In this document: in pieces, positions 6,088-43,800 of the stretch
Layout: every line of letters begins with the position of its first letter
Numbering within the stretch: the first letter of the stretch is position 1
Assembly (NCBI GenBank): GCA_019400425.1
Contig: JAFREE010000006.1
Location: 186,001-250,000, forward strand
From: Hymenochaete sp. R1
Taxonomy: Eukaryota; Basidiomycota; Agaricomycetes; Hymenochaetales; Hymenochaetaceae
Reading direction: 5' to 3'
Length of the DNA stretch: 64,000 nt
Made by a program: the position numbers and the translations under genes
The notes under the pieces: model-generated
The model's database searches: none
Told to the model about the DNA's origin: nothing
What the model saw: only the letters and a program-made list of their open reading frames with translations

Positions 6088-6826
6088 TTGACATTTGGGA
6101 GCTTGAAGGGCAAACGGGATGAGACCGAGGCTACGTTGGATTGTGACGGTGTGCGGATGGAATGTAGGGAGGGAAGATGTGATGTCAAAAGCGCTTTTAC
6201 GCGCAAAAATACGATTACTTGTAGTTGGACTATTGGTGTTATTCCATCAGAAGACCCATGTCAAAAGAGCGTATCTCGAACCCTCTATAGTCTCATGAAC
6301 TCAAGAAAGATGCATTGGTTGTCAAAATTGCAACATGCAGCTTAAAGAATTTATAAACCGTATTAAATACACAACTACACAGACACATATATATTCGCAT
6401 TTGTATTCATATATGAGCGAGAGAAGCCCATACTTAAGCATATACTTTTACATTGTGTTTCTTCATAAACATTAAGGGCGCCAAACATATAGTATAGAAG
6501 AAGAAAAGGATTAATCAACATAAAGCGGCGAAGAAGTTCGAATGGGGTGCCTCTCGGTCTCAAGGATAGGGTAAAATAGATAAACATAAAATAGAAGAAG
6601 GTAAAGAAGTGCTAAGGCGAGCGGGAACAAAAAGGGAAGCATAGAACGTAACGAGTCGTGAATCATGAATGTCTTCATCGGACGGTGAGCGTGACTGGGG
6701 CTATTAGCTAGCTATGGCGGGAGCGTGTCTAGAAAACATAACAAAAAGAAGTCGAAGCAGGTGAGCCCGAATTATTTTAGCAATAGCAACACGACTGACA
6801 GCTCTGCCTCCCATGCTCAAAGAAGT
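6088..6826. other. Intergenic, 3' flanks of RPA49 and the pheromone-like gene
   Basis: About 740 bases between two convergent genes. The centre, about 6350-6600, is AT-rich with short ATA/TAT runs and probably carries both polyadenylation regions. No second CaaX-ended ORF and no RNA gene were found by eye on either strand. Confidence 0.4.
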
Positions 6827-7042
6827 TCAAGCAACAACGCAATACGTCGTGCTCGACCCGCCACCCGTCTCTTCATCAACCGGGCTATCTTCGCCAATCG
6901 CGGACGCAGGCTGGGGCCTCGCAGCGACGACGCAGTAAGTCGTGCTGGACCCACCGCCGGTCTCGTACGACACAGGTCCGCCGTTGGTGGAAGAGTTCTC
7001 AGACCTGGACTTGGTGATGCAGATGGTGTTGAAGGCGTCCAT
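6827..7042 (-). CDS. Basidiomycete mating pheromone precursor-like gene with two tandem CaaX peptides
   Basis: The ORF encodes 71 residues. It begins MDAFNTICITKS, like many agaricomycete pheromone precursors, and ends in the farnesylation-type box CVVA directly before TGA (6829-6827). The 14-residue block ETGGGSSTTYCVVA occurs twice: at 6964-6923 and, as the C-terminus, at 6871-6830. The 17-residue spacer is ARPQPASAIGEDSPVDE. The copies differ at eight synonymous positions and at no amino acid. In the family, the C-terminal CaaX Cys is farnesylated, the last three residues are removed and the N-terminal part is cut off, giving a short lipopeptide for an STE3 receptor. How an internal CVVA would be processed is unknown. 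The start at 7042 is preferred; an in-frame ATG at 7171 would precede family-unlike sequence. A TATAAATA lies about 140 bases upstream. An unnoticed intron cannot be excluded. Confidence 0.8.
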   Translation of the reverse strand: MDAFNTICITKSRSENSSTNGGPVSYETGGGSSTTYCVVAARPQPASAIGEDSPVDEETGGGSSTTYCVVA

Positions 7043-7181
7043 TGAATTTGGGTATGTGTGTGAGATTTGGGGGTGAAGAGAATTAAGAAGAGGATAGAAG
7101 GGTTCGCGGAATATTGGGAGTTGTGCTTGGATGTTAGAGACTAATTCGTCTAAGGTTTGAGTAGGGCCCAAGAGCAGAGCC

Positions 7182-7189
7182 TATTTATA
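7182..7189 (-). promoter_or_regulatory. TATA box of the pheromone-like gene
   Basis: TATAAATA on the minus strand, about 140 bases before the ATG at 7042. A strong TATA and a short leader would suit a small, highly expressed gene. The position is seen; the function is inferred. Confidence 0.5.
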
Positions 7190-8131: not shown

Positions 8132-9621
8132 CTAAGCTGACGCGGTCATCTCGGGTGCGATCCTCTGCTCCACCGACTTGAGCTTATCTGTCCAGTTCTT
8201 TAGCCGTTCAGAAAGTGCACCGATTTGTTCAAGGCTGAGTACTCGAGGCTGTACCCAGGTGAATGTCGCGGTTTCACTGATTTGGTCAATCGAGCCGCGT
8301 AGGAGTGATAAGCTGTGAATGACAAGAATGAATAACTCCCCGGAGCAAATAGACAAAAAGATTTGGTTTGGGACGGACCTGAAAGCCTTCATTACTAAGT
8401 GCTCTACTTCTCGGACATCGAGCCTCGTCTCCTGTGCAATGGTTTGGAATGTCAGCGTTCGACTGTCTGCATTCCGTCGGAAGACAGATTCGATGAGCGC
8501 CATCAAGCAGATCTTTTGGTGGAGGAAAGGATAATTGTTGCTGAGAATAGGTTCTTTCGATAGTTGCGAGACAGTGCTTTCAAATTTCCCTATGTCGCCG
8601 GCGTTGAAAATGAAAAGAAGTTGTTTGATCCAGGCGTAGGGCGTTCCGTCGAGGGAAGATAATACGGGGTGCATGAGCTGGAAAAGTTGTGTTAGATATA
8701 TATTTTTGGAGGTGGTGAAAGAATACGGCGCACAAGTTCACCGAAGTTGTAGATCGTCTCTCCAAGCAGAGCAGCGACACTAAGGTCATGTGCACGAAGC
8801 ATTCGTTCCTCGGTTGTAAGATCCTTAGCGGGGTCGACGCAAGCAAGATATAGAAGCGAGTTCTTGTAGTATGGGCCGTAGTCTGCCTTAGCCTTTGCAA
8901 GAGTTTAGTCATAAGCTATTGCAACGCTACATATGAAGACCACACGCACCTTGTAATAGTCAGCTGCTACGCTGTAGTATGCCGCGTTTACAGCAGGGTC
9001 TACACCATCTAGATCATCCAAGACCTTCCATGCAGCTTCCATGTCCGTTAACGTCGCTTCAATGTCGCCGTATACGAGCTTGGCTTGCGCCAATGATGAT
9101 AAAAGAAGTACATGCGCTTCAGGCGAGTTTTCAGTGCTAATACGCCCCAGGAGGTTTTGGAGGAAGTTCAACTGGGTGGCGGGGTCTACCAAAGTCATAT
9201 ACGGTAAACGGGGTTTATGATCAGAGGGTACGAGCCTATGTGAATGAGACGAATGAACATACTATCGATCTCCTTTGATGCGATAACACCAAGCTCGACT
9301 AGCCTCAGCTGATTGAGTTTCTGCTCGAAGTCCCGTACGAAACGATCGAAGACATCGACGCGGTAAGGTCGTGACAGGTCGTTCCGGAAGAACTCGAATA
9401 ATTTCTTTGTGAGTTGATGCCATAGCCTACGCATTCACATTAAATTATTCGGTCAGTGTCTCAAGTCATTAAACAGAAATCCGAGGCACGCACTTGCGCT
9501 CGTGGAGAGAACGGAAAGACTCAAAAAACGGATGGAGGTCTTGTGGCGCCGCTGAGAGCGCTGTCGTCAGATATTGATCAACGTCCAGCTTCTCATTATC
9601 AACGGCCATTGAAGAAGACAT
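8132..9621 (-). CDS. RPN9: 26S proteasome lid subunit Rpn9 (PSMD13 type)
   Basis: Rpn9 is a PCI-domain scaffold of the 19S proteasome lid and helps place Rpn11. The start at 9621 (MSSSMAVDNEK) is chosen; the second Met at 9609 is also possible. Spliced sequence reads PFFESFRSLHERK, an intron, LWHQLTKKLFEFFRNDL, LVELGVIASKEID, then NFLQNLLGRISTENSPEAH, EATLTDMEAAWKVLDDLDGVD and NAAYYSVAADYYK. The C-terminal PCI/winged-helix end has LTFQTIAQETRLDVREVEHL and WVQPRVLSLEQIGAL. A TAG stops it at 8134-8132. Six or seven exons are separated by short introns, and the inferred length near 390 aa is normal. Its start is about 220 bases from the end of VPS36 on the same strand. Confidence 0.93.
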
Positions 9622-22825: not shown

Positions 22826-24311
22826 ATGCTCGACCCGACCTATCCTCTTCTCCCCGTGTTCACCTTCATCTCGTTCGTCCTCGTCCTCATCCCAATTCCG
22901 TGGCATCTTCAAGCATGGAATATTGGCACTTGCTCATATATGATTTGGACAGCCATTGCAGCTCTAAATCAATTTGTAAATAGCATTGTCTGGAGGAAAG
23001 ATGCGATCGACCGAGCTCCGGTGTGGTGCGATATCTGTGAGCCACTTTTGGAAATTCTAGTGTTCCGAAACTAATCCTTTCTCTCGGGCAGCTTCCCGTA
23101 TCATCATTGCTACTAGCGTTGCGATACCTTGCGCTTCCCTTACTATAACCCGTCGATTGTATAAAATTTCTCGAGTTCAGACCGTTACCACCGATTCTAA
23201 GGAGGTGAGCTGGATTCGCAATTCTATGTGTAATACTCTTCTTACCGTTATTGTGCCGTAGAAACGCCGCGAAATGATCATTGATCTTCTCGTCTGTGTT
23301 GGATTCCCTCTGTTTGAAATTGTGTTGTGTACGCATCTCCGATCATTTCAACTAGTGCAAGTATTAACAAGGTATCCAGATTACTTTGTCCAAGGACACC
23401 GTTACGACGTCATTGAGCAAGTCGGTTGCTTCCCCGTCACGATAAACACAGAGCCGGCCTATCCTCTTGTTTTTATGTGGCCTGTGCTACTTGGTGTCAT
23501 CTCTATGGTGTACTGCTTCTTCGCGCTTACGGCCTTCATGAAGCGACGGAGGGAGATGTCCATGTTCCTCAGTATGAGCACACAGATCAACCATTCACGC
23601 TACTTCCGTCTCATGACACTCGCGATGATGGATACCATGCTGACCGTTCCGCTTGGTACCTTCGCGATCTGGGTCAACGCCGCGCAGAGCCCCATTTACC
23701 ACTGGAGAGGGCTCGCAGACATCCATTTTGGTTTCAGCCGTGTTGGGCAAGTCCCTGCTGTATTTTGGAGGCTGTCCGATATAACCACACTCTCCCTCTA
23801 CCTCACCCGTTGGTTCATTGTCCTTGCGGCCTTCATTTTCTTTGCCTTTTTCGGCTTTGCGGAGGAGAGTCGCAAAAATTACTCAAAAGGGTTTTGGACG
23901 ATTGCAAAACGCTTCGGATATTACCCAAAGCCAGCTGGGTCGACGCTGTACGGGAGTTCCAATGTATACTGCACTCCGGTCCTTCCTACGATTTCCACGG
24001 GTTCTGCAAAGGATAACAACGGCATAAATCTCACCGTCAAGACCAACGAGAAAGTCAACCGTGAATCATATCTTTCCTCAATTGGCGATCTCGACTCCTC
24101 TATCACAGTGGACAGCACTTACGATGAACGCAAGGACAGTAAACCCCAAGCTAGTTCCTCGTCATCGGACAGTCTTCCTTCATCACCTGAAAACGTCGAA
24201 TTCGCTGGGCTGCCTAATCTGAATTCTCCCAGAGTATCGCGTCACTCAACAACTCTAACCGTCCCAACACGTCCTCCTCGTCCAGCTTCATTGGGCGACG
24301 ATATTGTATAA
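22826..24311 (+). CDS. STE3-type mating pheromone receptor 1 (seven-TM GPCR)
   Basis: STE3 receptors bind farnesylated peptide pheromones of the compatible mating type and signal through a G protein to a MAPK cascade. Four exons, 22826-23036, 23092-23204, 23262-23328 and 23380-24311, join in frame to 440 residues. TM1 begins at MLDPTYPLLPVFTFISFVLV. Family signatures are QAWNIGTCSYMIWTAIAAL, WCDI before intron 1, PCASLTITRRLYKI in TM3, and VGFPLFEIVLYYFVQGHRYD across intron 3. GCFPVTINTEPAYPLVFMWP follows in TM5. The helix before the tail includes LYLTRWFIVLAAFIFFAFFG. The cytoplasmic tail of about 150 residues is Ser/Asp/Pro-rich. It is the better of the two candidates for the MAT-B specificity receptor. 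A TATA-like box lies 215 bases upstream. Confidence 0.95.
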
Positions 24312-25607: not shown

Positions 25608-27688
25608 ATGCTCCGCACATTCTTTATCTTCTCCTGTTTCTTCAGCCTCGCTCTCAACCTCGTCCTCCTACCATGGTTCATTCGCTTCAAAAACGTCCCC
25701 GGTTTGTTCGCGCTCGGATGGCTCATCCTCACCAGTCTCTTGTTCGGCCTCAACGCGGTGGTCTTCGACACCGATAGCCTCCTGAGCGCTCCAGGCTACT
25801 GCGACTTCGGTCAGTGATGTTTTCCACCGTTTCTGAACTTCAACCACAGAAGCACGAACTGACACTGACGTTTTGTGCCTCTTCAGTGACTAAGCTCCTC
25901 GTCGGCATGCAGATGGGGTTCGCCATGTCCATGTTGTGTTATATGTTCCAGTTCGAGGACTGGCTCCATCGCCCGGATTCTCGCAATCTCGACATTAAGC
26001 ATTTAGAGTACCGAGCGTATCTCCACATCGCAGTGTGCGCGGTCTTCCCGATCTTATACATGGCTTTGCGTAAGTACAGTAAACTTCCGTGTTCTTCAAT
26101 ACATTGAACTGACCTCATACCCACAGACATACTCGGCCAAGACCACCGATTTGACATTGTCGAGGGCTTCGGTTGCATTCCATCCTCCGACGCTTCGTAT
26201 GCCGGTTTCCTCATCATATGGGCTCTGCCCATAATTCCTCCGCTAGGGGCGAGCATCCTTGCAGGTGAGTATTATGTCGGATGCTAAGAACCTCTTGACT
26301 CACCAGATCAATCAGTTCGCCTCCTCAACTACCTGAAATACCGTAACCGCCTGAGTGCCATGTACCACACGACCTGGGAGAAGATAAACTCCGACTTGTG
26401 GTTCACCCGTGCACCATACGGTATCTACCGCATCATCCGGATGGCCACCATCATGCTCATCCATGGCCTCTGGATCATCTTCACCCCCTTCTTCCCCCTC
26501 GTTATCTTCGCAAATTCAGACCCCGCACACGAGCAAGACCAAGATATCTCTCGTATCCACGTCTTTTCCTCCTTCCACGACTCTGCGAGTGCTGAATCCA
26601 TGCAACTCCTCGTCTGGTCCATCCCCGTCTTTTCCATCCTCTTCTTCATCGGCAACATCGACAAGGACGTCCTCATCTCGCTCCCCTTCCTCGTGAAGAA
26701 GCATATCCTCGGTCGCTCGAACATGCTCCCGGACCCGAGCCCAGGCATCGACCTCTCCTCCATCACGCCCATCCCAGTCCGTAAACGCCTCTACGCCCGG
26801 GTCGTGCGCAAGAGCCGCATGTACGATGCTCCGGTAACGGACGAAGAATTCGATATCCCGTTGCCTCGGTCTAGCACCGACAGCCTTGGGTACGTCGACT
26901 TGTCGCCTGTACCGATGCCTGAAGCAGTACGCTTGCCCGTCCGTGGGAGGGTTGGCAGTCCGTTCGGTACACCCAAACAGGCAGTGCGTAGCGCAAAGGA
27001 TGTTCTTCATGCCCAACGGAGAGAGCGAGCGGAGAAGCGAGCTCGTGCGTTCGAAGAAGCCCAAGCTAGGCTCGAGGCAGAAGAAGACGCCAGGCTAAGA
27101 GCTCAAGCTATGGTCACGGAAAAAGCAGCAATCAAAGCTAGAAACGCTGCCTTCAGGCGTCCAGCTCCCTTTGCTTCTATCCCAGATGACGTCGCGTCAA
27201 CCGATGGTGATTTTCACAATGACGTACAAGCCAACATTACAGCCCCCAACGGTGGCCGTCTTCGCTGTTTAACTCCGTTGAAACCCATCTACCAGGCCTT
27301 CGACATCCGGCGCTTAGCCTCCGACTCGAACCACAAGTCTCGCAAAGATCCAGAAAAAGAAGAAACCCCTTCAATCAATCTCGCAGTACCATTAGAGCGG
27401 GCAAGGCAGATCCACAACATGCGCATCCAGCAATTCCCGTTATATTCGATCAAGGAGGACGAGATCCGCGTCGTCGAGACGAAATACCGTCCGGAGACGC
27501 CTAAGTCTCCATCTGTATGGGTCCATCGAGTTGCGAAGCCTAAGCCTGGTCAGTCCGTTCGTGAAGTTGGCGAATACTCCATCGTGGAGATGGAGGGCAT
27601 CACGATTGAAGGACCTTTCGAAACGTATAACAAGGTCGAAGAAAGTCTTTCTATGGAAAAGCCTAAGAAAGGGTATGATATCGTTTAA
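25608..27688 (+). CDS. STE3-like pheromone receptor 2 with long cytoplasmic tail
   Basis: Four exons, 25608-25809, 25887-26069, 26127-26264 and 26316-27688, join in frame to 631 residues. TM1 (FFIFSCFFSLALNLVLLPWF) and TM2 (LFALGWLILTSLLFGLNAVV) are clear. YCDF-VTKLLVG matches the STE3 WCD-x-TKL position, and GQDHRFDIVEGFGCIP corresponds to the family QGHRYDIxExxGC before TM5. Later helices are IMLIHGLWIIFTPFFPLVIF and MQLLVWSIPVFSILFFIG. The tail after the last helix is over 320 residues, far longer than in receptor 1, and has an Arg/Glu/Ala coiled-coil stretch near 27000-27160 (RRERAEKRARAFEEAQARLE). The same orientation and about 1.3 kb spacing suggest an old duplication, but the two share few identities. 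It may be a non-mating-type STE3-like receptor, as found beside MAT-B loci in other mushrooms. Confidence 0.88.
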
Positions 27689-40893: not shown

Positions 40894-43800
40894 TTAGTTT
40901 GACGGCCGCGTCTTGAAGAGGAGTAAGGGCGAAAGACCCGATGGTGGGCACGCTTTCTTCATGAATTCGTTCTGTAGAATGGAAAAACACCAAGGTCAAC
41001 AATCTTTTTCTAATCAAAAGGAAGTGGAAAAGATAGGAAGCTAACCTCCAATAACTCGCTCGCCGACGCCCGACTCTTCACGTCGACACACAAACACACG
41101 CTCAAGAAGCTCTTCAATTCCCGACTCAGCGCATCCGGCTTCTTCAACGTCGGCGTCCCGTTCGTCGCAATCAAGTAAAGAGCTTTTAGTGGCTCTTCAT
41201 CAAGATACGGCGGTTCGTTCTCAATCATCTCGATGGCCATGATGCCAAGGGACCATATGTCTACTTTTGCCCCGTATTCCTTTTGTTTGACAACTTCTGG
41301 GGCCATCCAGTACGGCGTGCCGACCATCGTCGCACGCTTCGATTTTTGATCAGTGAGCTTTGCGCAGAAGCCAAAGTCAGCTATTAATAAGAATAGGTTT
41401 TTAGCTTCAGGACATTAAAAGAGGGTAGAGTAATACGTACTGATTTTGACTCGGCCTTGTGAATCAAGAAGGACATTATCAGACTTGATATCACGATGTA
41501 TAATATGCTGCTCATGCAAATGCTTCAAGCCCTTGCACGTCTAGAAATGGCTATTTATCAGATACTATCACCAAATCCACCAAATGAAAGTACCCACTTC
41601 GAAAGAAATCGCCGAAATCTGTTCCTCTTCCAGCGTATTGTTCTCGATAATATCCGTCAATGCACCGCCCTCCATATACTCCATCACAACCCACAGTTCG
41701 TTGTTGCGGACAAGATAGCTCTCCAGGAAGTTTACGATGTTCGGGTGTTGCGACTCCTTCATGACGAGGATTTCATTGACGATGAGCTCGATACGCGGCT
41801 GGCGTGAAAGATCCATCTCCTTAATCGCGACCTTCTTGCTCGTCGGGATCGTCTTGGCGACATATACATGACCAGAGGCTCTAAAGGTTCAAACACCATG
41901 AAAACCATGAACACCCAGGGCCTCGGATCAGAATCATAGTCAGATGGCAGAAAATATACACGCACCCCTGCCCAATTTTCTTGATCTTGCTATAGAGCAA
42001 TTTTGGATCGTCTGGGCTCACTACACTCCTTAGCTTATCCATGATCTGTCCTTCCGACATCGTGCTAATACGCCTTTCCTTCTCCTTCGGTTTCTCAAGC
42101 GCTGCAGCCGCAGCCGCTACGCTTCCACTCGCGGGCTCTTCTACCTGTTGAGTCTGACCCTGTTGATGTTGCTGCGCTCCACCGTCCTTTGGCAGCTTCT
42201 TCGTCGTTTGCAGCGGCTTGACGGGCGGCGGCCCAACTGTCGTTCCCGCCGCACCACCAGCAGGGTGGCTCGCCGGCGCGCTTGTCGCAGGGCTCGACTT
42301 CGAAGGCGCAATCTGTGGCCGATGTCGGTCATCCTCTCGAGAATCCTTCCTCTGCGGCGGCATTTGTTGCGGTTGTTGTTGCCGATCGTATTGCTGTTGG
42401 TCATGATCCAGTCCAGGAGGACGTACTTCGACACGGTCAGCGGGACCTTGTGCTTTCGTGCGCATACGGAGGTCCTGACTGGAAGGAGTATGATCTGGGC
42501 CGCCAGACTTAGGTGCGGAAGGCGCGGGCCGGGTGCCAGTAAGAAGCGGTCGTTGAGGTGCTGGCGGTGCAGGACGTGAAGCTTGGAGAGAGCCGGATGG
42601 CATACCTGGGAGACCCGGCCGGGCCTGAGGGCCTGCACCGATCGTGTTAGCATGCTGGACATGGGCTCCGTTGACCAGCTCCGCGGCACGCGCAGCAGCG
42701 ATTGCCGTTGACGACTTGCCATTCATTCCAACAGCAGGTGTTGAATCCTGCCGCGACATGCCTGGCCGATCGGCAGGTTTGTTAGATCCTGCGAGGCCTG
42801 TTCCAGCGTTGAAGCGCGGAGCGGAGGGCGACTCTGCGTATGGAGACGGCGCGCTACCAGTGTTGTTGGCTGTCGAAGCGCTTCTGGACATGCCAGGAGC
42901 GAGACCAGCGATCTCATCCATCTCGCGTTCGCGCTTTTGATGGTCGGTATAAAATTCAAGGACGTCAAGAACGGCTTGGGGATCTTTGGCATAGTCCTCG
43001 CGAGTAATGGCTGAACGCGTTAAAAGCTTGCTCCATTGATCAGGAAGTCCCTAGAGAAGAGTGACAGAAATGCCATAATAATGGCATTAGCATACAACAA
43101 CACGAATGTAGTGCAAGCTAAGCAAACAGCGACGCGAGATGACATTATGGGGTGAAGGCCCAAGCGGCATCGTCACGCCGCAGGGCTTAAGGAGATTCGT
43201 AACACTCACTGTGAAACCTCCAGAAATTGGGTCAAAGCCAACATGGACCTTGTGTTGGAAGTTTGTGGGTTGACCGACGCCGCTGAGCGGGCTCCGCGAG
43301 TAGATATCATCGATCCATTCATATACCTCTTCGTCATTCTTTAGCGAAAGGAATACACGCTTGTCGGGTGTCTCGACAATGAGGCAGTACGGTTTGAGTT
43401 CTACTCGTTCGACATTGGAGACATCGCCAAGCTTGATTGCGTTTTGTTGCGAAGCCGACTAAATCCCAGGGAGACCCCATCCATCAGCGATCAAGGTATA
43501 AAAGGAATGTGTCTGAAAAACTGACCTCATTCTTGTGGAACGTCAAAGTGGTTTCTTTGAGGACCAACCACTTTCTCGACCAGAACAGGCTTCCAATAGC
43601 AAAGCCATCTTCTTTCACGCTTGCCCAGCCAGTACGCACGATGTCGCCGTTGGGACCAGAGCCCGGGTTAGTGTTTTGACGGATTGGCGATGCACCGATG
43701 CCAGAGTATGAAGTGGCGTAGGACGAGCCTGCGCCGGAGGGCGCGTTAAATTGGAAAGACGTCTTGTAGCCTGCGTTCACGAGCGATGAGCTCGTGCTAG

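Follow-up and report, generated by a model that had tools for sequence, protein, structure and literature searches.

A pheromone precursor gene with two copies of one peptide, each ending in a CaaX box, in the mushroom Hymenochaete sp. R1

Mushroom pheromone precursors follow recognizable rules: they begin with MD[SA]F, have a charged site some 10 residues ahead of the cysteine and end in a CaaX box (PMC8305134, PMC8686365). Precursors with repeated peptides have been described from other fungi. Rhodotorucine A derives from tandem pheromone sequences with CaaX-like spacers (PMC3068285, PMC3236058), and in Puccinia the MFA1 precursor has its peptide repeated three times in tandem, as is also reported for Microbotryum (PMC10977897). 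The h-type precursor Hpp1 (hpp1) of Trichoderma carries three CaaX-like motifs per chain, and its authors suggested that several prenylated peptides arise from it in a manner similar to rhodotorucine, leaving the route of maturation and export to future studies (PMC3068285). In this study, we analyzed 64,000 nucleotides of contig JAFREE010000006.1 of Hymenochaete sp. R1 (the whole stretch is called the window), which contain a gene for a short precursor with the same peptide twice, an internal CaaX box closing the first copy and a C-terminal one closing the second. The open reading frame (ORF) and its parts are as follows:

6827..7042, minus strand: two-copy pheromone precursor ORF, 71 aa plus stop (ORF translation; Pfam PF08015)
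6923..6964, minus strand: first peptide copy ETGGGSSTTYCVVA with internal box, residues 27-40 (translation)
6872..6922, minus strand: linker ARPQPASAIGEDSPVDE, residues 41-57 (translation; compared with relatives)
6830..6871, minus strand: second peptide copy ETGGGSSTTYCVVA with C-terminal CaaX box CVVA, residues 58-71 (translation)

Judged by its translation, the ORF is a mushroom pheromone precursor. The protein scores 25.1 bits with PF08015 at a Pfam gathering cut-off of 22, its start MDAF fits the MD[SA]F rule, the terminal box CVVA occupies residues 68-71, and the charged sites have the expected spacing, with E27 located 10 residues before C37 and E58 10 before C68. Each copy has an acidic N-terminal processing site and a CaaX box of its own. 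The site ahead of the first copy is PVSYE, which is similar to PISYE in a Hymenochaetales precursor (P0091), and it is resembled by the PVDE(E) site in the linker, the second copy having PVDEE. The linker also has an Arg two residues past the internal box. A preceding sequence-only reading had proposed a pheromone precursor gene with the same peptide twice and an internal CaaX box; translation and PF08015 match bear this out, and the strand, which it had not given, is minus.

With the agaricomycete single-peptide precursors of PF08015 the gene shares the MD[SA]F start, the charged site some 10 residues ahead of the cysteine, the C-terminal CaaX box, a Gly-rich peptide ending in YC and the vicinity of STE3, differing from them by two peptides and two boxes per chain. 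Tandem peptide copies parted by CaaX-like spacers, as in the rhodotorucine A precursors (RHA), are also found here, and the earlier comparison with the red-yeast genes was apt; the peptide is a different one, the red yeasts belong to the Pucciniomycotina, and the comparison made here is one of layout. The same holds for Puccinia MFA1, with a repeated peptide in one precursor and another peptide sequence, Puccinia belonging to a subphylum other than that of the mushrooms. Hpp1 has Kex2 sites between its repeats and a CPAX motif, whereas the linker of the window gene is without a dibasic pair and its boxes read CVVA.

On the DNA level, alignment of the two 42-nt copies revealed 8 base differences, all of them silent and in third positions, with no amino-acid change. 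In this stretch 27% of single substitutions are silent, and when 8 random substitutions were simulated 200,000 times, only 2 outcomes were all-silent. Read most simply, both copies were kept constant as protein while silent changes built up, which would imply selection on both. Since an assembly duplicate would be identical as DNA and decay of one copy would alter residues, the silent-only differences speak against either. A repeat search with a 9-base seed did not report the pair, as the copies nowhere align without a mismatch over more than 8 bases.

The gene is not alone in this genome. Five precursors were found, the set being identical for the protein query and the PF08015 query, and further searches with the paralogue and with relative P0008 gave no additional ones. 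Two have two boxes, the window gene and a paralogue (C295:103425-103643; MDSFTTLS...SYEVGGGACTMYCVVSQRPEAPSTDVPVDQELFGSDSTTKMYCVIA; PF08015 29.4 bits), and three have a single box (on contigs C52 and C325 and at C293:139735), of which the one on C52 ends in ETSGGSSTTYCVIA, close to the window peptide. The two peptides of the paralogue have become unlike one another, yet it keeps both boxes, the internal one as CVVS. This gene may thus encode two different pheromones and could be the better test object for maturation. Regarding processing, STE24-type and ICMT-type matches are present in the genome, and prenyltransferase-repeat matches occur on three contigs.

Promoter and splice signals were inspected for the transcript:

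7180..7189, minus strand: TATA box TATAAATAGG, 147 bases before the ATG (upstream sequence)
6729..6799, minus strand: weak intron candidate in the 3′-untranslated region, with GTCAGT donor, CTCAC branch-like site and YAG (consensus match only)

TATA-like boxes precede all five pheromone genes, and two of the five have the identical ten bases TATAAATAGG, which are located at -193 in the paralogue; no upstream 9-mer is common to three or more of the five. Within the ORF, a loose donor-branch-acceptor rule finds two intron candidates of 58 nt (partial donor GTACGA) and 44 nt (full-consensus donor GTGGGT), which share one acceptor and a branch-like site behind the first copy. Splicing there could remove one copy and leave a single-peptide transcript. 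Neither length is a multiple of 3, so that the frame would be shifted, the rule gives no candidate in the paralogue, and intron sequence would not evolve by silent changes only; we consider such an intron very improbable. A chance ORF or an assembly artefact, in favour of which nothing was found, has hardly any probability left in view of the silent-only divergence, the PF08015 match, the TATA box, the paralogue and the many relatives described below. The intron and the assembly error, both named by the sequence-only reading as what could undo it, are thereby disfavoured, the latter because an error would not yield silent differences only.

Relatives were sought in three protein searches, which yielded 4, 30 and 151 matches at E values up to 10, with 120 of the 151 listed, amounting to 127 different proteins. 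The second and third queries were profiles built wholly from two-box sequences, and the third search scored the 7,984 candidates sharing most words. Among the matches listed, 99 of the 127 proteins have two boxes, a fraction which is biased by these profiles and therefore is no estimate of prevalence. Including the two genes of our genome, 129 sequences were examined, comprising 101 with two boxes, 23 with a terminal box only and 5 with an internal box only, in which the gene model probably ends differently. The models of P0105, P0106, P0109, P0110 and P0119 (Hypsizygus, Ephemerocybe, Coprinellus, Crepidotus) terminate within or ahead of the second copy in other residues, perhaps due to predicted introns or frame changes that remove the terminal box, and may be annotation errors. 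Residues beyond the second box were found in 4 of the 101 (P0023, P0044, P0053, P0108). Among listed precursors of at least 50 aa with a terminal box, the internal box is kept in 97 of 99. A clear natural loss is P0103 of Piloderma croceum, where the internal Cys is replaced by Gly in a still recognizable peptide body; P0004 also is without an internal box.

Two-box precursors come from Tricholoma matsutake, Tricholomella constricta and Lyophyllum shimeji, and further sources include Hypholoma sublateritium, Pholiota conissans, Coprinellus micaceus, Coprinopsis marcescibilis, Dendrothele bispora, Stygiomarasmius scandens, Jaapia argillacea and Phellopilus nigrolimitatus. The orders include Agaricales (Hypholoma), Jaapiales (Jaapia) and Hymenochaetales (Phellopilus). 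The assumption that the layout is exceptional in mushrooms was not confirmed, given the second two-box precursor in the same genome and the relatives listed, biased as that set is. Nine relatives were scanned with PF08015; P0008, P0010, P0014 and P0016 passed, P0001, P0066 and P0091 were just below the cut-off, and P0024 and P0082 gave no match. Three scans of a viral contig collection revealed no encoded relative, and a sequence search of the PDB gave 0 matches.

The 101 two-box sequences were used to compare the two positions, the body being defined as the nine residues before each Cys and the box as C-a1-a2-X. Body identity is 88% on average within a precursor and 43% between precursors, with at most 48% obtained in 2,000 shuffles; in 59 of the 101 the bodies are identical over all 9 residues. 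The boxes follow the position. Terminal X is Ala in 96/101, while internal X is Ala in 44, Phe in 30, Ser in 18, Thr in 5, Cys in 2 and Ile and Asn in 1 each, giving non-Ala residues in 57/101 internal versus 5/101 terminal boxes. A terminal Ala with another internal residue occurs in 56 cases and the reverse in 4. Internal a1 is Val in 100/101, tighter than terminal a1 (Val 77, Thr 17, Ile 6, Ala 1), and internal a2 is Val or Ile in 100/101. Wherever internal X is Phe (30 boxes), the next two residues are AK, AR or SK, and Lys or Arg is found within three residues past the internal box in 73/101. Most of this pattern persists when the set is crudely thinned to 42 representatives: Val is found at internal a1 in 42/42, X is non-Ala in 21/42 internal and 4/42 terminal boxes, and body identity is 85% within and 41% between precursors. 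X differs in 13 of the 23 representatives with identical bodies. Thr at terminal a1 drops to 3/42 and Phe at internal X to 6/42, and the Phe class is therefore inflated by close relatives.

The high identity within precursors, found in many relatives that were compared as protein only, could also result from gene conversion or repeated duplication keeping the copies alike independent of a function of both. The 8 silent differences in the window gene argue against recent homogenization there, and conversion of the whole unit would erase the difference between the four-residue boxes that is seen in 44 of the 59 precursors with identical bodies; we regard this explanation as improbable.

We favour, at a probability of roughly 0.62, that the gene encodes a two-copy lipopeptide precursor in which the internal peptide would be cut free in the linker and then prenylated. 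Farnesyltransferase acts on a C-terminal box, and therefore the internal peptide must first be cut free; the sequence-only reading, which had called for a free C-terminus and hence an extra cut, was right on this point. The terminal copy would take the usual route of farnesylation, removal of aaX, methylation and an N-terminal cut. For the internal copy, an endoproteolytic cut in the linker right behind the box, often beside Lys or Arg, would expose the C-terminus before prenylation. One chain would thereby release the same peptide twice, as a farnesyl methyl ester with about 10-11 residues and TTYC at its end. The recurrent Lys/Arg behind the internal box suggests, short of proof, a basic cut in many precursors. 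In RHA precursors the spacer contains Lys, with a basic residue right after the box; here an Arg stands two residues behind it, and the two-box set is divided on this point, 73 having Lys/Arg within three residues and 28 not. The two-copy precursor is preferred on account of the silent-only copies, the PF08015 match, the location with STE3 and a PAK-like gene described below, and the two-box paralogue and relatives. It is further preferred for the body identity of 0.88 compared with at most 0.48 in shuffles, the internal C-V-[V/I] and the box kept in nearly all precursors of at least 50 aa with a terminal box, the frequent Lys/Arg, and the processing matches in the genome (prenyltransferase-repeat, STE24-type and ICMT-type).

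Several observations weigh against this reading. The X of the internal box is unlike the terminal one, so that this box might not be recognized in the way of a normal CaaX box, and the internal copy can be dispensable, as the loss in P0103 suggests. Lys/Arg is absent behind the internal box in 28/101, and a basic cut is therefore not universal. The silent-change test rests on one gene, the window precursor, and the invariance of Cys among the 101 is given by construction, as the two-box pattern demands Cys. No RCE1-like match was obtained in a six-frame genome search, a weak negative since introns split genes. No core resembling HMG or pheromone-response elements lies within 500 bases upstream of the window gene or its paralogue; such cores do occur upstream of two single-box genes (C52 and C293:139735).

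The main rival explanation assigns the pheromone to the terminal copy alone, the internal copy being a pro-region for folding, enzyme docking or timing that is discarded or released without lipid. The unlike X in most precursors and the lost Cys in Piloderma fit this, as does the general knowledge that farnesyltransferase works on C-terminal motifs. In Coprinus cinereus, moreover, prenylation was reported as merely raising pheromone efficiency (PMC3068285). A pro-region, however, need not follow the terminal peptide residue by residue nor retain C-V-[V/I], and the bodies match within precursors far above shuffles, with the window copies differing only silently. We therefore rate it as unlikely, though to be taken seriously.

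A bolder extension of the two-copy reading, which we regard as speculative and rather unlikely as a whole, would make two-box precursors an old and widespread class with a positional grammar. Internal tails would have their own code (CVVF[AS][KR], CVV[AST]...) versus CVVA or CTIA at the terminus, and these internal tails would be recognized by a linker protease dedicated to them. Geranylgeranyltransferase I (GGTase-I) is described as having Phe at X as a feature of its substrates (PMC9231725), and the CVVF class, if cut after Phe, would be a substrate of the GGTase-I type. If true, the same peptide with two different lipids could issue from one gene.

In the open-access literature, searched by titles and abstract starts, we found no report announcing a mushroom precursor with two CaaX boxes, and in their available parts several papers (PMC8305134, PMC4101180, PMC5473757, PMC3140503, PMC8970355, PMC8686365, PMC12387193, PMC4938666) name the C-terminal box only, with no mention of an internal one. 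The gene family is thus known, as is the principle in red yeasts, rusts and Trichoderma, and the two-box class is apparently unremarked in mushrooms. The maturation of internal CaaX boxes is a general question for tandem lipopeptide precursors, for which the sizeable natural set in mushrooms offers material, some of it presumably in or near transformable species, and the repeated signature of the internal tail points to the expected position of the cut. Gene finders can miss such genes; in one study, candidates were set aside if they exceeded 200 bp or lay far from STE3 (PMC8970355), while the ORF described here has 216 bp and lies about 16 kb from STE3.

The window contains 114 ORFs of at least 110 aa, of which 30 were scanned against Pfam. 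Mating-type-related features are:

22856..24311, plus strand: first STE3-type pheromone receptor gene, matches 22856-23882, open frame to 24311 (pieces with E 1.2e-21 and 6.1e-55)
25635..26266, plus strand: second, more divergent STE3-type pheromone receptor (pieces with E 6.2e-7, 0.0155 and 3.3e-5)
41881..43050, minus strand: ORF with p21-Rho-binding domain (PF00786), PAK/CLA4-like by this domain, a type of gene found beside matB in other mushrooms (Pfam; PMC8970355)

The STE3 genes are about 16 and 19 kb and the PAK-like gene about 35 kb away from the precursor. All STE3 matches scored in the genome search, at least 5 and to be taken as a lower bound, sit in the window region on contig C293. 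In Trichaptum, STE3 together with PAK/CLA4 identifies the matB region, for which 30 kb were reported (PMC8970355); the surroundings in the window, taken from one assembly, would accordingly be classed as matB-like, looser than these 30 kb. The divergent second STE3-like receptor directly follows the first, and the next open frame (26288-27688) is without a Pfam match. A single-box precursor (C293:139735-139920) is located on the same contig about 53 kb from the two-copy gene. The neighbour of the two-copy gene, at 8132-9261 on the minus strand, has matches to PCI and PSD13_N and probably encodes a proteasome lid subunit.
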